Positions 27,793 through 39,277 of a DNA stretch of 64,000 nt are shown here, piece by piece; the stretch's first letter is position 1, and each line of letters begins with the position of its first letter. The notes below the pieces were generated by a model. The model saw only the letters and a program-made list of their open reading frames with translations, had not been told where the DNA came from and ran no database searches. The position numbers and the translations under genes were made by a program. The DNA is from Prevotella sp. GTDB lineage: Bacteria > Bacteroidota > Bacteroidia > Bacteroidales > Bacteroidaceae. The stretch spans positions 218,447 to 282,446 of the forward strand of contig JAFYZT010000027.1 of assembly GCA_017548605.1 (NCBI GenBank). The letters run 5' to 3'.

Positions 27793-28911
27793 TTAAACAG
27801 CCTCTACCACCTGGCAGATGTCGGCAAAGATACGGTCGAGGTCACCGAAGCCATCAATATGCTTACGTATCCCTTCCTTCTCATACCACTCGATGAGCGG
27901 CGAGGTCTGTTTGTGGTACACATTCAGTCGTTGGCGTATGGTTTCCTCATTGTCATCGGAACGGCCACTCATTTGACCACGCAGGAGCAAACGTTTCATC
28001 AATTCGTCCTCAGGCACATCCAATTCAATCATGGCAGCCACCTTATGTCCACGTTTGGCCAACATTTCTTTCAAAGCCTCAGCCTGTGGGATAGTGCGGG
28101 GGAAACCGTCAAAGATGACACCGGCATGTTCTGCTCCGAATGTGTCGTAAACACTGGCCAGAATGTCAATCATCAACTCATCGGGAATGAGCTGCCCCTG
28201 GTCGATATAAGCCTTGGCTGTCTTGCCGAGTTCAGTACCTTGTTTGATTTCATTGCGAAGCACGTCGCCGGTGGAGATGTGGTTCAGCCCGTATTTCTTG
28301 ATGAGCAGCTCACTCTGTGTGCCCTTGCCTGAGCCTGGCGCACCGAAAATAACAATGTTTTTCATAATCTTCTTCTCTTTTACTAAAGTATATATATCAC
28401 GCAGGTTGCGTCCTTGCTGGTCATAATCAAGGCCATAGCCCAAGATGAAGTCGCTGGGAATCTCCATGACCACATATTCAATGTCGAGCTCTACCTTCAG
28501 TTCCTTAGGTTTGAGGAGCAGTGTACAGATATGCACCGACTCGGGGTTACGTGTTCCTAACGTCTCTATCATCTTCTTCATGGTCAATCCCGACTCCACG
28601 ATATCCTCGAGGATGATGATGGTGCGTCCAGACAGGTCTTCATTGATGCCTATCACCTCCGTCACCTTACCCGTGGAGGTTGTGCCTTGGTAAGAAGCCA
28701 ACTTCACGAACGAAATCTCGCATGGAATGGTGATGCGCCGTAGCAGGTCGGCGGCGAAGATGAACGCTCCATTCAACACGGCGAGGAATAATGGATTTTT
28801 GTCGGCCATGTCTTTATTGATACGGTCGGCCACTACTTGGATACGCTTGAGGATTTCCTCCTCAGGAATAGACGTGCGGAATGTCTTGTCCTTGATTCTT
28901 ACAGTACTCAT
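27793..28911 (-). CDS. Hypoxanthine phosphoribosyltransferase-adenylate kinase fusion
   Basis: One uninterrupted frame of 372 residues encodes two enzymes. Residues 1-180 are a hypoxanthine phosphoribosyltransferase: AVLNGAFIFAADLL and the PRPP loop IILEDIVESGLTM. A short KEKK linker leads to Met183, from which a complete adenylate kinase runs: P-loop GAPGSGKGTQ, IFDGFPRT, and RGQMSGRSDDNEETIRQRL, with a short lid. No frameshift or stop separates them; Met183 could also serve as an internal start giving free adenylate kinase. The fusion would link IMP/GMP formation to AMP-ADP balance. Followed by obgE. Confidence 0.93.
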   Translation of the reverse strand: MSTVRIKDKTFRTSIPEEEILKRIQVVADRINKDMADKNPLFLAVLNGAFIFAADLLRRITIPCEISFVKLASYQGTTSTGKVTEVIGINEDLSGRTIIILEDIVESGLTMKKMIETLGTRNPESVHICTLLLKPKELKVELDIEYVVMEIPSDFILGYGLDYDQQGRNLRDIYTLVKEKKIMKNIVIFGAPGSGKGTQSELLIKKYGLNHISTGDVLRNEIKQGTELGKTAKAYIDQGQLIPDELMIDILASVYDTFGAEHAGVIFDGFPRTIPQAEALKEMLAKRGHKVAAMIELDVPEDELMKRLLLRGQMSGRSDDNEETIRQRLNVYHKQTSPLIEWYEKEGIRKHIDGFGDLDRIFADICQVVEAV

Positions 28912-30368: not shown

Positions 30369-31883
30369 ATGAAAATACTTACAAGTATTCAGCTGCATGA
30401 GCTGGACGAATATACGATAGAGCACGAGCCCATCAAGTCTATCGACCTGATGGAACGAGCCGCCAAAGCCATCTCACGCGCCATCAGTGAACGGTGGAAC
30501 GTGCGCACGCCTATCGTTACCTTCGCCGGTCCCGGAAATAACGGCGGCGACGCGCTGGCCGTATCACGCATGTTGGCAGAACAGGGTTATAACGTAACGG
30601 TCTATCTGTTCAACACCAAGGATCACTTGTCTGAGGACTGTGCCATCAACCGCGACCGTCTCACTTCACGCGTGAACAAATTCACGGAAGTAACACGGGG
30701 TGAGTTTGAACTGCCCACTCTCACTGCCGAGACGCTCGTTATCGACGGTCTGTTCGGCAGTGGTTTGATGAAACCGCTCTCCGGCGGTTTCGCCTCGTTG
30801 GTGAAATTCATCAATCAGACGCCCTCGACCGTAGTGAGCATCGACGTGCCGTCGGGTCTGCTGTGTGAAGACAACAGCAACAATATCCATTCTAATATTA
30901 TCCGTGCTGATCTCACCCTCACGCTCCACCAAAAGAAATTGGCTTTCCTCTTTGCCGACAACCAACAATATGTGGGCAAGGTGAAGGTGCTCGACATTGG
31001 CCTGTCGAAAGAGTTTATTGAGCAGACAAACACCGAATATACCATTTTGGAAGAGCAGGATGTTCGCAAGCTCATGCAGCCACGCGACGATTTCGCCCAC
31101 AAGGGTAGCATGGGTAGCGCCCTGCTTGTTGCCGGCAGCTACGGCATGGCCGGTGCCGCCATCCTGGCTGCACGTGCCTGTACACGCAGTGGCGTGGGAA
31201 AGGTGACTGTCCAGATACCATCCAACAACTATGCGGTGATGCAGATGAGCGTTCCTGAGGCATTGGTACAAATTGGCAGCGACCCCAACTACTTCGCCGA
31301 GTCAGTCGACTCCGAGCCGTTCGATGCATTGGGTATCGGTCCCGGACTGGGACAAAGCGAAAACACCGCCATCGCCTTAATAGGACAGTTGCGCCGCACG
31401 CGCTCGGCTATCGTCGTCGATGCTGACGCACTGAATATCCTGGCCAGCCATCGTGCATGGATGCAACAACTGCCCAAGGAGATCATCATGACCCCCCACC
31501 TCAAGGAGATGGAGCGTTTGGACGGCAACCGTTATAACACCGACTACGAACTGTTTATTAAGGCGCGTGAGTTAGCCGCCCACCTCAAGGCATATATCAT
31601 CCTAAAAGGTCACTACAGTGCCCTCTGTCTGCCCGACGGCAATGTTGTTTTCAACAGCACGGGCAACAGCGGCATGGCCACGGCAGGATGCGGCGACGTG
31701 CTCACCGGTTTGATAACCGGCCTGCTGGCCCGCGGTTACAGTCAGGCTGATGCCTGTAAAATCGGCATGTACCTGCACGGACTAGCCGGTGACCTGGCTA
31801 TTGCTGATATCGGCAAAGAGAGTCTCGTGGCAGGCGATTTAATCACTTACCTGCCCACCGCCTTCAAGATGCTGGGAGGTTAA
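30369..31883 (+). CDS. nnr: Bifunctional NAD(P)H-hydrate epimerase / ADP-dependent dehydratase
   Basis: Repairs hydrated NADH and NADPH. 504 residues, the full bifunctional length. The N-terminal YjeF_N epimerase domain (about 1-215) has FAGPGNNGGDALAVSRML and DGLFGSGL. The C-terminal ribokinase-like dehydratase domain (about 225-504) has HKGSMGSALLVAGSYGMAGAA, VVDADALN, and NSGMATAGCGDVLTGLI. Has its own promoter and a strong terminator, so it is monocistronic. Confidence 0.95.
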   Translation: MKILTSIQLHELDEYTIEHEPIKSIDLMERAAKAISRAISERWNVRTPIVTFAGPGNNGGDALAVSRMLAEQGYNVTVYLFNTKDHLSEDCAINRDRLTSRVNKFTEVTRGEFELPTLTAETLVIDGLFGSGLMKPLSGGFASLVKFINQTPSTVVSIDVPSGLLCEDNSNNIHSNIIRADLTLTLHQKKLAFLFADNQQYVGKVKVLDIGLSKEFIEQTNTEYTILEEQDVRKLMQPRDDFAHKGSMGSALLVAGSYGMAGAAILAARACTRSGVGKVTVQIPSNNYAVMQMSVPEALVQIGSDPNYFAESVDSEPFDALGIGPGLGQSENTAIALIGQLRRTRSAIVVDADALNILASHRAWMQQLPKEIIMTPHLKEMERLDGNRYNTDYELFIKARELAAHLKAYIILKGHYSALCLPDGNVVFNSTGNSGMATAGCGDVLTGLITGLLARGYSQADACKIGMYLHGLAGDLAIADIGKESLVAGDLITYLPTAFKMLGG

Positions 31884-31923: not shown

Positions 31924-31960
31924 GCCACTGGGAAACAATTTCCCGGTGGCCTCATTTTTT
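31924..31960 (+). terminator. Rho-independent terminator of nnr
   Basis: Arms 31924-31935 and 31939-31950 form a 12-bp stem (one G-U pair) with loop CAA, followed by CTCATTTTTT (31951-31960). It insulates the riboswitch unit from nnr transcription. Confidence 0.9.
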
Positions 31961-31970
31961 CATCCATGCT

Positions 31971-32002
31971 TTTGGTCAATAGGAAAATAGTTTTTACCTT
32001 TG
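31971..32002 (+). promoter_or_regulatory. Promoter of the cobalamin-riboswitch transcript
   Basis: TTTG (31971-31974), a 20-base spacer, then TACCTTTG (31995-32002), beginning transcription just ahead of the riboswitch. Confidence 0.72.
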
Positions 32003-32021
32003 CACGGCAATACAGAAATGT

Positions 32022-32200
32022 GTTGCCCGCTTAGGTGCACTTAGCTGTGCTTAATTGGGAACGTGAGTGTGAATCTCCGACTGTCCCGCAGCTGTGAACT
32101 CCGTTATGGCTCCGAAGCAAGACAAGCCATTGTCCATTTGGACGAGAAGGCGCTTGGGGGTGGAGGAAAGTCAGAAGACCAGCCTTTTGCGGAAAAGACA
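32022..32200 (+). ncRNA. Cobalamin (adenosylcobalamin-type) riboswitch
   Basis: The leader contains the conserved core of a B12 riboswitch in the right order: TTAGGTGC at 32031-32038, CTTAATTGGGAA near 32050-32061, GTGTGAATCTCCGACTGTCC near 32067-32086, CGCAGCTGTGAA at 32087-32098, and the B12-box element AGTCAGAAGACCAGCC at 32169-32184. These match the consensus GGTGC...TTAATAGGGAA...GACTGTCCCGCAACTGT...AGTCAGGAGACCTGCC. A following hairpin (GCCA..TGGC near 32217-32232) and the T-rich stretch before the gene may form the expression platform. Ligand binding would normally lower expression of the transporter at 32269. Exact borders are approximate. Confidence 0.9.
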
Positions 32201-32268
32201 CTTTCAAGCCACGATGCATGGCTCCGGTTAGTGCAAGTTAAATTTTTAGTAGTTATAAATATTCCGTT

Positions 32269-33774
32269 ATGTTTAAGAACTTCAACGGGTTCCATCTTGT
32301 GGATGCATATCACAGTATGCGTCTGGAGAAATGGATCCAGTCTGGAATGGTGATTAAGAAATCGGCAATGGCCATTGTGGTGGTTTTAATTACACTGCTG
32401 CTGTGGAATTTGCCAAGTAGTTCATTCGGCATTGAGGGTTTGAACGTGGTGCAGCAACGCATCATCGCCATCTTTGCATTTGCCACCTTGATGTGGATAC
32501 TGGAAGTAGTGCCGTCATGGGCCACCAGTGTAGCCATCATTGTTTTATTGTTGCTCTTCTGCAGCGACTCCGGTCTAAAGCCCATGTGTAATCCCGACGA
32601 AGTGGGGGAACTGTTGTCATACAAGGGGGTGATGGCCTGCTTTGCCGATCCAGTCATCATGCTGTTCATCGGAGGCTTCATACTGGCCATTGCTGCCACC
32701 AAAACGGGTCTCGACGCACAATTGGCAAAAATCCTGCTCAAGCCCTTTGGAACAAAAAGTGAGACGGTGCTTTTAGGTTTTCTGCTCATCACGGGCTTAT
32801 TCTCCATGTTTGTTTCCAATACGGCAACAGCGGCTATGATGCTGACGTTTCTCACTCCCGTTTTCCGTCAGTTACCGCCGGAGGGCAAAGGACGTATCGC
32901 ACTGGCATTGTCCATACCCGTGGCAGCCAACCTCGGTGGCATGGGCACTCCTATCGGCACGCCTCCCAACACCATTGCCTTGAAATACCTAAATGACCCC
33001 GAGGGGCTGAACCTTAATTTAGGTTTCGGTCAGTGGATGTTGTTCATGGTTCCTTTGGTCATCGTATTGTTGTTTATCAGCTGGTTTCTGTTGCGCAAGA
33101 TGTTCCCCTTCACGCAGAAGCGGATAGAACTGAGCATCGAGGGCGGCATGAAGCCAGGTATTCATACGAAGATTGTTATTGTGACATTTATCGTTACCGT
33201 TGCACTGTGGCTGCTTGACTCTGTCACAGGCATCAACTCCTATACCGTGGCACTCATCCCCTTTGTCATCTTTTCATTAACGGGTGTTATCAACCGTCGT
33301 GACCTGGAAGAAATTAACTGGAGTGTCATCTGGATGGTAGCCGGCGGATTCGCCTTAGGTTACGGACTGAACCAGTCAGGACTGGCAGCACTGGCCGTTA
33401 AGAGTATCCCCTTCGGTGACTTCTCGCCCATCATCATTCTGATTCTATCGGGAATCATCTGCTACGTACTATCGAACTTCATCAGCAATTCTGCCACGGC
33501 GGCATTGCTCATGCCCATTCTTGTGGTGGTATGCTCGGCCATGGGTGACAAGCTCACCGCCATCGGCGGCACGCCTACCATACTCATTGGTGTAGCAGTG
33601 GCTGCCAGCTCCGCCATGGTATTACCTATCAGTACCCCACCCAACGCACTTGCCTACGCCACTAACCTTGTCGAACAGCGCGACATGGCTCGCATCGGCA
33701 TCTTTACAGGCATCATTTCTATGATATTGGGATACGTACTGCTCTATTTCATGGGGCTTGTGCACTTTATTTGA
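32269..33774 (+). CDS. DASS/SLC13-family dicarboxylate transporter under B12 riboswitch control
   Basis: Inner-membrane carrier of 501 residues with about 11-12 hydrophobic segments. It carries both SNT-type signatures of the divalent anion:sodium symporter family: VSNTATAAMM near residue 182, and the matching SNSATAALLMP in the second half, plus LGGMGTPIGTPPN and STPPNALAYA in the paired tip regions. Family substrates are succinate, malate, fumarate, citrate or sulfate; the sequence alone does not choose. The leader carries a cobalamin riboswitch, so it should be turned up when B12 is short. ATG 32269 is used; later in-frame ATG codons at 32317 and 32347 are possible starts. Confidence 0.9.
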   Translation: MFKNFNGFHLVDAYHSMRLEKWIQSGMVIKKSAMAIVVVLITLLLWNLPSSSFGIEGLNVVQQRIIAIFAFATLMWILEVVPSWATSVAIIVLLLLFCSDSGLKPMCNPDEVGELLSYKGVMACFADPVIMLFIGGFILAIAATKTGLDAQLAKILLKPFGTKSETVLLGFLLITGLFSMFVSNTATAAMMLTFLTPVFRQLPPEGKGRIALALSIPVAANLGGMGTPIGTPPNTIALKYLNDPEGLNLNLGFGQWMLFMVPLVIVLLFISWFLLRKMFPFTQKRIELSIEGGMKPGIHTKIVIVTFIVTVALWLLDSVTGINSYTVALIPFVIFSLTGVINRRDLEEINWSVIWMVAGGFALGYGLNQSGLAALAVKSIPFGDFSPIIILILSGIICYVLSNFISNSATAALLMPILVVVCSAMGDKLTAIGGTPTILIGVAVAASSAMVLPISTPPNALAYATNLVEQRDMARIGIFTGIISMILGYVLLYFMGLVHFI

Positions 33775-33828: not shown

Positions 33829-33865
33829 GGGGAGCCCCCGTCGTGAGACAGCATCTCCCTTTTTT
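33829..33865 (+). terminator. Probable terminator after the DASS transporter
   Basis: GGGAG (33830-33834) can pair with CTCCC (33855-33859). Inside, GTC-GTGA-GAC forms a small hairpin closed by a GNRA-type loop, leaving a symmetric internal loop, and TTTTTT follows directly. It lies between the transporter stop and the flavodoxin-like start, so it could also be a regulated element. Confidence 0.55.
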
Positions 33866-33887: not shown

Positions 33888-34283
33888 ATGAAATCTACAA
33901 TAGTTATCTACGGACATGAGTCCAAACTGACAAAATCTGACGCCAAGCACATTGCCTACTATCTTGGAGCACAGACCACCTGCACCCATCACATTAACAA
34001 GGCCATCATGAACGGTGTGGACAATATCGTTCTCTGCCTTCCTTCTTTCAATGCTGAAGGGGCGGAAAAGGAATGGGTAGAATTCTTTTGCACATTCCGT
34101 GATATGGACTTGACAGGCAAATGCTTTGCTCTTTACGTACCTTCCGACAGTTTTTATGCCAAAAAGGTAATTGAGTTAGAAGATGTTCTCTATCATCAAG
34201 GGGCAAGGGTTATCAATCGTCCTTTCTGCAAACCACACTACACCATTGACACTTGGATTTGCGTTGTTTCGCCCAATCTGTAA
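33888..34283 (+). CDS. Degenerate long-chain flavodoxin-like protein
   Basis: 131 residues from ATG 33888 with AGAAGA upstream; the frame extends further but overlaps the terminator. The order of elements follows FldA flavodoxins: strand TIVIYGHES, helix DAKHIAYYLGA, strand NIVLCLPSF, EGAEKEWVEFFCTFRDMDLTG (cited in part), then FALYVPSD and HQGARVINRP. However, the FMN phosphate loop (normally SxTGNT) reads GHESKLT, and the GDQxGY motif reads SDSFYA, so FMN binding is probably lost or changed. Shorter than normal flavodoxins (about 165). Separated from the transporter by a terminator-like hairpin. Function unknown. Confidence 0.65.
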   Translation: MKSTIVIYGHESKLTKSDAKHIAYYLGAQTTCTHHINKAIMNGVDNIVLCLPSFNAEGAEKEWVEFFCTFRDMDLTGKCFALYVPSDSFYAKKVIELEDVLYHQGARVINRPFCKPHYTIDTWICVVSPNL

Positions 34284-37197: not shown

Positions 37198-39156
37198 TTA
37201 GAATGAGATGGTAAAAGCACCACCGAGAATAAAGGTATGACGGTCTTTCTTAACACTTTGGGTTTCAGAGAAATCAAAGTCGCTTAACTCAGTAAAATCA
37301 GCAAGAGAAGACCACTCCCTTAACGATAATCCTAACATTGTGGTGGCATCCAACATAAACTCTCCAGGGTTGTATGTCATGGTGTATTTTTTGCGGCTGA
37401 AGTCATAGTCTAAGAACACCTTCCACGCATAGTTCTCCTTGTAGGCGTAAGTCAATGATAAACCTGTGCCGAACTTCATCGTGTTATTCGCCCCAACGGT
37501 GAAATAGTCCCAGTTCGATATGTATGTTTCTGGCAGGTGTGTTACCATCATCTCGTTAGTATCGTCATCTATCATGACATCTCGACGTCCACCCTCCACG
37601 GTTGCGTTCAGGTCGATATCCTGCATGACACTACGTCCAAGGAGCAATTTCGAACCCAGGGCAAAACGGTCCGAAAGCGGCAGGTTAAAATACACGCCCA
37701 GGTCGGCAGAGAACTCCGTCAAATGGTCGCTCTTAATGGTGAATTTGGCTTCGGTAATAAGGTTGGGACTGTAGTTGGGGTCGCCCGGTTGACCATATCC
37801 GTTGACCATATCTTGAACGAATTGGCTTTCGTTGCTGGCATTACCAGCCAATACCTCCACCATATCTTTCCATGCATATCGCTCTATGCCATCCCATCCC
37901 TTAACAGGTGAACTGTTGACACGTAAACGGCCACCCACGCCAAAATACTTGTTGAAGAAATAGGCTCCCTCCACCCCTACAACGGTGGAAGCACCAAACT
38001 TCAGGTTGAAGGCTTTATCTTCATCATCAGTGAAATCAAAATGTTCCATGTTGAATTTCATATCACGTGAACCCATTCCGATACCCATCGATACGGAGAA
38101 GAACGAGGGATTGTCGATGATGCTCTTTTCACCACTGATGTCGCCGCGCAACAACCCACGTCCCTTAAAAATCACGTCGCTCAGGGCATAGGCCAACTCG
38201 CCCGACATGATGCCGATACCCGCCCCCGAGAGCACGTCCGACACCCAATGGCGGTTGTTCAGCACACGCATCACGCCCGTTGCCGTGGCTACGGTATATC
38301 CCGCCACGGAATACCAAGGCGAGCGTGTCAGTCCATACTCCTTGTGCAAGATAGTGGCACCGACAAAGGCCGTGGCAGTATGTCCTGAAGGCCAGGAATT
38401 ACGTGTCGACCCATCAGGACGCATCTCCTTGGCCGTATATTTGATACTGTTGACAAAAAGAGCCATGAAGCCATACGACATGGCCGTGGAAGCCAAGTAA
38501 CGCCCCCAATCAGAGCGACCCTCCACACCTGCTATTTTCAGTCCCGTGGCAAGCGTCGGTCCGAAAAACTGCGTATAATTGTCTATCTCCGTCTTGAATT
38601 CGGTTACCAGCGTATGCTTATTATCTTTCACGTTCTGGCGGAACGATTTTTTCTCGCTCTTGGCGATGATACCCGCCACGAACAAGGGCACGCCGGCAAA
38701 AGTAAGGTCGTTCATGAACTTATAGGGCTGTACGCCCTCATTGGTGCGCATCCATGTGATGCGGTACTCGTCGGTCTCCGGCACTGTGACAGGCAAGGTC
38801 ATCGCCGTCTCGGAACGGTTGTTCGACTCCCAGGATATGAGTGAAGGAGCCATGGCCGATGCCAGGGAATCAGCCCATTCGGAAACCCACCCCGGCCCTC
38901 CCGAAGGGAGGGAGTATGGAATATCACTGAGACATTCGGAAACCCACCCCGGCCCTCCCGAAGGGAGGGAGTATGGAATATCACTGAGACATTCGGAAAC
39001 CCACCCCGGCCCTCCCGAAGGGAGGGAGTATGGAATATCACTGAGACATTCGGAAACTGATGGCTGAGGTAAGTCGGCATCATCGATGGTTTCGGCTGCC
39101 ACCACACCACTCATTCCGAGGACTGCCACCAATAATAAAAACTTCATTCTTATCAT
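37198..39156 (-). CDS. PAP2-family phosphatase with C-terminal outer-membrane beta-barrel and N-terminal repeat insertion
   Basis: About 652 residues from ATG 39156 (ATG 39147 also possible); the signal ends SGVVAAE. Residues about 30-95 hold a 19-residue unit (SECLSDIPYS-LPSGGPGWV) in three near-identical copies, encoded by a REP-like DNA repeat. A PAP2 domain follows: KEMRPDG, SWPSGHTATAF, and RVLNNRHWVSDVLSG. The last 300 residues alternate polar and hydrophobic residues and end in GGAFTISF, typical of an outer-membrane beta-barrel. It could dephosphorylate lipid A, undecaprenyl pyrophosphate or other phospholipids near the outer membrane. It lies 75 bp before the PhoN-VanX gene and may be co-transcribed. 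Confidence 0.85.
   Translation of the reverse strand: MIRMKFLLLVAVLGMSGVVAAETIDDADLPQPSVSECLSDIPYSLPSGGPGWVSECLSDIPYSLPSGGPGWVSECLSDIPYSLPSGGPGWVSEWADSLASAMAPSLISWESNNRSETAMTLPVTVPETDEYRITWMRTNEGVQPYKFMNDLTFAGVPLFVAGIIAKSEKKSFRQNVKDNKHTLVTEFKTEIDNYTQFFGPTLATGLKIAGVEGRSDWGRYLASTAMSYGFMALFVNSIKYTAKEMRPDGSTRNSWPSGHTATAFVGATILHKEYGLTRSPWYSVAGYTVATATGVMRVLNNRHWVSDVLSGAGIGIMSGELAYALSDVIFKGRGLLRGDISGEKSIIDNPSFFSVSMGIGMGSRDMKFNMEHFDFTDDEDKAFNLKFGASTVVGVEGAYFFNKYFGVGGRLRVNSSPVKGWDGIERYAWKDMVEVLAGNASNESQFVQDMVNGYGQPGDPNYSPNLITEAKFTIKSDHLTEFSADLGVYFNLPLSDRFALGSKLLLGRSVMQDIDLNATVEGGRRDVMIDDDTNEMMVTHLPETYISNWDYFTVGANNTMKFGTGLSLTYAYKENYAWKVFLDYDFSRKKYTMTYNPGEFMLDATTMLGLSLREWSSLADFTELSDFDFSETQSVKKDRHTFILGGAFTISF
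38881..39055 (-). repeat. 57-bp in-frame tandem repeat, three copies, REP-like core
   Basis: Units start at 38881, 38938 and 38995, each 57 bp (19 codons) and essentially identical. Each contains the palindrome CCCTCCCGAAGGGAGGG, preceded by ACCCACCCCGG. A related sequence with the same ACCCACCCC...CCCTCCC core lies in non-coding DNA at 48509-48563. Confidence 0.92.
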
Positions 39157-39277
39157 AGTCTTGCGCAGTTTTATCAATCATCACCCGTAGAAATACCTGT
39201 ACCGTATTCCTACCCTATAGGAAATACGCCACAAAGATAAGAAAAAAAACGAAACGAACCGTCAACAACAAAGAAAA

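Follow-up and report, generated by a model that had tools for sequence, protein, structure and literature searches.

A cobalamin riboswitch upstream of a DASS-type organic-acid carrier gene in Prevotella sp. and its relatives

The window, a stretch of 64,000 nucleotides from Prevotella sp. (contig JAFYZT010000027.1, positions 218,447 to 282,446), carries a cobalamin riboswitch directly ahead of a gene for a carrier of the DASS/SLC13 family. The anatomy of the locus makes it nearly certain that the riboswitch RNA leads the carrier transcript. The explanation favoured here, to which we give slightly less than an even chance, is that the riboswitch has a promoter of its own and regulates a Na+-coupled carrier for di- or tricarboxylates, and that the purpose of this carrier lies at the succinate node. 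A cobamide would bind to the aptamer and the expression of the carrier would fall; when B12 is short, the carrier would be made. The B12-dependent methylmalonyl-CoA mutase would decide between succinate and propionate, and this is the node where the carrier would act, the cell resetting its transport of C4 acids to the B12 supply.

The leader and the carrier in the window

The gene upstream of the leader is nnr (30369-31883). The gap between the two contains a terminator-like hairpin (31924-31950, forward strand) whose stem has 12 pairs and whose T-rich tail extends to 31960, in agreement with an earlier note on this DNA, made from the sequence alone, which had placed a terminator there. The hairpin has a long stem and, together with its flanks, a folding energy of -26.8 kcal/mol; the terminator scan as a whole returned two sites compared to a shuffle mean of 2.1, which is no excess. 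Two promoter-like elements can be read from the forward strand further downstream: TTTG at 31971-31974 and, 20 nt after it, TACCTTTG (TAnnTTTG) at 31995-32002. They are called promoter elements on the basis of what we take to be the Bacteroidota -33/-7 consensus; a sigma-70 scan gave no promoter match at 31971-32002. TAnnTTTG is found by the aptamer start in 18 of the 20 leaders in which a riboswitch lies directly upstream of a carrier, compared to 4 of 172 background stretches, which lends support to the promoter that the note had proposed.

The aptamer occupies positions 32016-32201 of the forward strand. The Rfam search, a check that the earlier note had suggested for its riboswitch, matched RF00174 with 87.5 bits (E 3.2e-20, gathering score 31.5) along the full length of the model, positions 1-189 of 189, and this was the sole Rfam match at the gathering thresholds in the 64 kb. 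With such a score, chance or a misread RNA was rejected. A second model, R1, was built from 10 riboswitch copies including that of the window, so that its score of 192.9 bits for the window aptamer partly reflects the copy itself; its E-values are rough. The aptamer ends 67 nt before the ATG of the carrier. The genome of the window (3.25 Mb, 55 contigs, 92% complete) contains four cobalamin riboswitches. Judged by eye, one of the other three is ahead of a locus that starts with a TonB receptor, and the remaining two are ahead of large or surface-type proteins.

The gene directly downstream (32269-33774, forward strand) encodes a carrier of 501 aa. Its assignment to the SLC13 type is borne out by the NCBIfam DASS model TIGR00785 (255.1 bits, cut-off 198.6), and Pfam gives matches to CitMHS (159.3 bits) and Na_sulph_symp (151.4 bits). 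Each of the two repeats of the protein has an SNT-type motif, the first reading SNT (codons 32815-32823) and the second SNS (codons 33484-33492); Ser in place of Thr in the second motif is also present in 130 of 193 matched relatives. Among solved structures, a profile of 10 relatives best matches the cotransporters VcINDY (211 bits) and NaCT (200 bits), followed by Pho90 (phosphate, 185 bits), SLC13A2 (161 bits) and SLC13A1 (sulfate, 137 bits). The exchangers score lower, LaINDY at 89 bits and the chloroplast exchangers at 43-46 bits. The carrier does not group with sulfate or citrate transporters only, a grouping that would have refuted the earlier note. When the window protein is used as a single sequence, Pho90 comes first (129 bits), ahead of VcINDY (122 bits), which counts against the explanation favoured here.

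In DASS exchangers both Na+ sites carry basic residues (PMC7553777; here and below, papers are cited for the parts of their text that were accessible). No Lys, Arg or His was found near the SN motifs in any of the matched proteins, 202 at the first motif and 193 at the second, the check covering the neighbourhood of the motifs rather than a residue-by-residue alignment with LaINDY. This trait of the LaINDY-type exchangers was thus not seen in the surroundings of the motifs. Because the profile favours cotransporters and there are no basic residues near the motifs, the carrier looks Na+-coupled and VcINDY/NaCT-like, for C4 or tricarboxylates. Its nearest solved relatives transport C4-dicarboxylates and citrate. 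C4 acids are the likely substrate, and, given the scores of NaCT and Pho90, citrate or phosphate may take their place.

The type of sequence points to Na+-driven uptake rather than to export. The suggestion of the earlier note that the carrier exports succinate when B12 is scarce is a possible logic, but one that the cotransporter-type profile and the lack of basic residues do not favour. The genome of the window contains no second match to the carrier at E <= 0.001, and it contains two DcuA/DcuB genes side by side (G000:C20:151870-154546, loci L307 and L308). DcuA/DcuB is a usual route of succinate excretion, and as these two genes could serve succinate, they count against a role for the carrier with this acid and likewise speak against the export claim. 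P. bryantii is reported to have a relative of dcuB and two putative Na+-coupled dicarboxylate carriers (PMC8516057).

Several other features of the window were seen in passing. A hairpin, GGGAG...CTCCC followed by six T, lies past the carrier at 33830-33865, and its core, GTCGTGAGACAGCATC, resembles a hairpin in the leader of the ortholog L013. A short flavodoxin-like ORF (33888-34283, forward strand) is situated 114 nt past the carrier, its best NCBIfam match being FldA with 41 bits, under the cut-off; it was rejected as a regular operon partner, being present at 3 of 232 loci (the window, L092 and L095 only). An ORF of 659 aa (37198-39177, reverse strand) has an N-terminal repeat (38741-39067) in which one peptide block is found three times. 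At 27793-28911 (reverse strand) a hypoxanthine phosphoribosyltransferase and an adenylate kinase form one ORF of 372 aa.

Recurrence of the pair and the B12 genes around it

Carrier loci were assembled in five sets: 80 close orthologs from public contigs, 82 loci (30 + 52) from 200 sampled genomes of the window's genus, 40 more distant carriers from that same sample, another 29 loci from 201 sampled genomes of the family, and 20 regions, of which 19 are from the family sample and one from a second look at a genus genome. Removal of 19 duplicates reduced these 251 loci to 232, and of three with short upstream DNA to 229; the tree holds 228 carriers, four short proteins having been left out of the 232. 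The Rfam search was run on part of the loci and the R1 search on all 251. Close and distant carriers (groups A and B) were separated by identity to the window protein.

A riboswitch lies directly upstream (within 500 nt) of the carrier at 20 of the 229 distinct loci, compared to an expected 0.04-0.07, where kinship among the loci makes the Poisson and Fisher figures overstate the certainty. Together with two loci that have intervening genes, this gives a same-strand upstream riboswitch at 22 of 232 loci. The carrier is divergent from a riboswitch-led btuB unit at 10 of the 232 loci, adjoins another B12 gene at 24, and has no B12 link at 173. Counted over the 229 loci, 56 are linked to B12 by a riboswitch or an adjoining B12 gene. 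A control set of 40 random regions of 13.5 kb, taken from contigs that hold carriers, had no riboswitch and a single weak match to a B12-locus protein.

The 20 occurrences rule out a peculiarity of the window alone. The arrangement is not a fixed one either: most carrier orthologs have no riboswitch, and among the first 80 orthologs it is directly upstream solely in two (L008 and L013). The flanks of these 80 contain B12 genes in nine cases and a riboswitch anywhere (E < 0.001) in six, one of them weak (25 bits). On the FastTree phylogeny of the 228 carriers, the presence of an upstream riboswitch must have changed at least 10 times, and that of any B12 link at least 22 times. The direct pair is present in at least four genus groups: that of the window (the window, G035, G182, G115, G187 and, in decayed form, G043), g21 (G384, G370 and G220, with more distant copies in G246 and G356), g14 (seven genomes) and g30 (G373). 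L008, which also has the pair, has no genus code assigned. The link of the carrier family to B12 loci is well supported by these comparisons, and from the recurrence of the pairing it seems that organic-acid transport is tied to the B12 supply in these bacteria.

The copy in G043 (L095 731-988) has an insertion, has lost its 5' core and scores 35.2 bits in Rfam. Such decay, and the 173 unlinked loci, would be expected if a rearrangement beside a btu locus had left the riboswitch in front of the carrier, where it had no use. A neutral or decaying link of this kind is very unlikely, because the aptamers have stayed intact across species, promoter elements and a covarying hairpin have been kept as well, and the pair is spread over the carrier tree. 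A loose pattern had pointed to a decayed riboswitch in L009, which the R1 search did not confirm.

The surroundings of the carrier in relatives would also fit a different kind of role. In the cluster riboswitch-btuB-cbiK-DASS-cbiK-pduO-cobQ (L056) the carrier stands between two cbiK genes. The order riboswitch-cobO-DASS is found in L059, where CobO was named by eye, and in L301, which duplicates L164 and is counted as 'adjoining B12 gene'. In L174 the carrier is the last in a run of genes for a DUF5074 protein, a DUF4465 protein, a btuF-like and a btuC-like product. DUF4465 proteins are reported to bind B12 (PMC13398666); the proteins called BtuB-like and BtuC-like score under the NCBIfam cut-offs. 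In the distant carrier group, btuF, btuB or pduO adjoins the carrier at 25 of 40 loci, 24 of them divergent and one on the same strand. All of these arrangements would be accounted for by a carrier that serves the acquisition of corrinoid or cobalt, for example as a cobalt-organic acid complex or a carboxylated precursor, and for that reason is found in btu and cob/cbi loci and under a riboswitch. This is nevertheless unlikely. DASS pockets are known for small anions and are not known for corrinoids, and the gene content of the genomes with a direct pair, described below, also speaks against it.

Two of these loci have features of their own. The first cbiK-like gene of L056 (L056 4852-8493) appears by eye to have a lipoprotein-like signal, which is odd for a cobalt chelatase. 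In L063 (6001-9706) two different DASS genes in tandem are followed by a cobalamin riboswitch and a BtuB-like gene.

Methylmalonyl-CoA mutase, B12 synthesis and the sign of the switch

The genome sets used to compare mutase and carrier were compiled by hand from result tables, and draft or MAG-like genomes are common among them, which makes absences soft. The mutase (TIGR00641) is present in all 19 checked genomes with the direct pair, including that of the window, the genome of L008 lying outside the check. CobQ is over the cut-off in 14 of the 19 and under it in five, the window's own among them; G043, with its decayed riboswitch, has no CobQ above the cut-off. CbiK was not found in 3 of the 12 direct-pair genomes examined for it (G000, G182 and G043). 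The genome of the window (G000) therefore combines a mutase with neither CbiK nor a CobQ above the cut-off. The mutase in 19 of 19 genomes, with cobQ missing in five, favours a succinate/propionate logic over cobalt supply.

Of the 200 genomes in the genus sample, the mutase is present in 74 of the 85 with a close carrier, 3 of the 51 with a distant carrier and 54 of the 64 that have no carrier of either kind. The occurrence of the close carrier by itself thus does not follow that of the mutase; that it is no commoner with the mutase than the lack of any carrier is a point against the explanation favoured here. The direct pair was found in 6 of the 69 mutase-bearing genomes examined and in none of the 50 that lack the mutase (p 0.035, kinship ignored). 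That the direct riboswitch was seen only alongside the mutase is in line with a function at the succinate node in those lineages. The mutase-poor group keeps its carrier by B12 genes, which succinate logic leaves unexplained. The connection between B12 and succinate drawn in the earlier note has thus held in part: the mutase accompanies every checked pair and the pairing recurs, but the 25 of 40 B12-linked loci in the mutase-poor group fall outside it.

The hairpin AGCCA-CGATGCA-TGGCT (32207-32223, forward strand), directly 3' of the aptamer, is a candidate expression platform. It is common to nine relatives, in which CGATG in the loop is invariant, the stem covaries and 94.4% of cells are paired. 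The covariation score of 0.731 exceeds the 0.271 of shuffles and the scores of the slid hairpin, which reach 0.130 at most. One of five measures is unremarkable: pairs changed on both sides number 4 against a shuffled mean of 2.8, and 109 of 500 shuffles reach that number. In the other groups the same hairpin was not found right 3' of the aptamer. The loop CGATG is complementary to CATTG of the aptamer (32128-32132), and the two may pair. A kissing loop as in class-I aptamers was rejected, because the loop of the aptamer P5 arm varies among the relatives, and the claim is therefore limited to the covarying hairpin.

The search of the window leader showed neither a terminator nor masking of the start site. 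In L013 a strong hairpin followed by a T-rich tail lies between the aptamer and the gene, which fits OFF control. L259 has a weaker terminator-like hairpin that overlaps the shared hairpin, so that the two could compete. Most cobalamin riboswitches lower expression (PMC11575231), and because they act so, we infer that cobamide binding lowers carrier expression here and that a shortage of B12 leads to production of the carrier. An ON switch, in which B12 would raise expression and the carrier would import outside succinate for conversion to propionate while the mutase is active, is quite unlikely. It would agree with the cotransporter-type sequence, with the mutase in every direct-pair genome checked, with the possible competition in L259, and with an SLC13/DASS gene of Phascolarctobacterium that occurs with succinate-to-propionate genes (PMC7568257). 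The usual direction of these riboswitches, the window leader without a terminator in the scan and the hairpin of L013 are against it.

A wider statement, which is possible although the chances are against it, would be that a B12-sensing RNA, joined repeatedly with the carrier in several genera, gates organic-acid transport. It would help to set the release of succinate against the conversion of the cell's own or outside succinate to propionate, and its sign might be ON.

Comparison with known systems

The targets described for cobalamin riboswitches are B12 synthesis, B12 uptake, cobalt transport and isozymes of B12-dependent enzymes; the source, a 2013 survey of RNA regulons in Bacteroidaceae, mentions transporters for B12 and cobalt in general terms (PMC3766115). 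No description of a DASS gene led by a B12 riboswitch was found in the literature searched, supplementary tables such as those of PMC3766115 lying outside the search. Transcripts of a citrate:sodium symporter, traced to Lachnospiraceae, were lower under cyanocobalamin in the mouse caecum (PMC9896722); the accessible text of PMC11405475 yielded no transport terms. The target in the window is an organic-acid carrier, and its link to the riboswitch is found again in several genus groups among gut and rumen bacteria. A B12-controlled carrier would be a directly testable candidate for the steering of succinate versus propionate output by B12. A DASS subfamily stands by B12 genes in many relatives, and no role there was found in the literature searched.

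Xylanibacter ruminicola KHP1 is a close relative with B12-dependent propionate formation and, like the window genome, four cobalamin riboswitches, but none of these is by the propionate genes and the accessible text names no DASS target (PMC11575231). The propionate pathway genes of X. ruminicola are reported to respond little to B12 (PMC11575231). The ortholog in X. ruminicola Ga6B6 (L061) has no riboswitch upstream in the Rfam and R1 searches although propionate is B12-dependent in this species, which weighs against the explanation favoured here. The SLC13/DASS gene of Phascolarctobacterium faecium is placed with succinate-to-propionate metabolism and was highly expressed in co-culture; it is thought to be a succinate importer, and the accessible text mentions no riboswitch for it (PMC7568257).

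The riboswitches of btu operons 1-3 of Bacteroides thetaiotaomicron belong to the same RNA family and phylum and lead B12-responsive transport loci; their targets are B12 uptake proteins, whereas that of the window is an organic-acid carrier (PMC12751083). VcINDY and NaCT share the SNT motif and the TPPNA segment with the window carrier, but the identity, by impression from the alignment, is about 30% or less, and the second motif is SNS in the window carrier compared to SNT in the two solved proteins.
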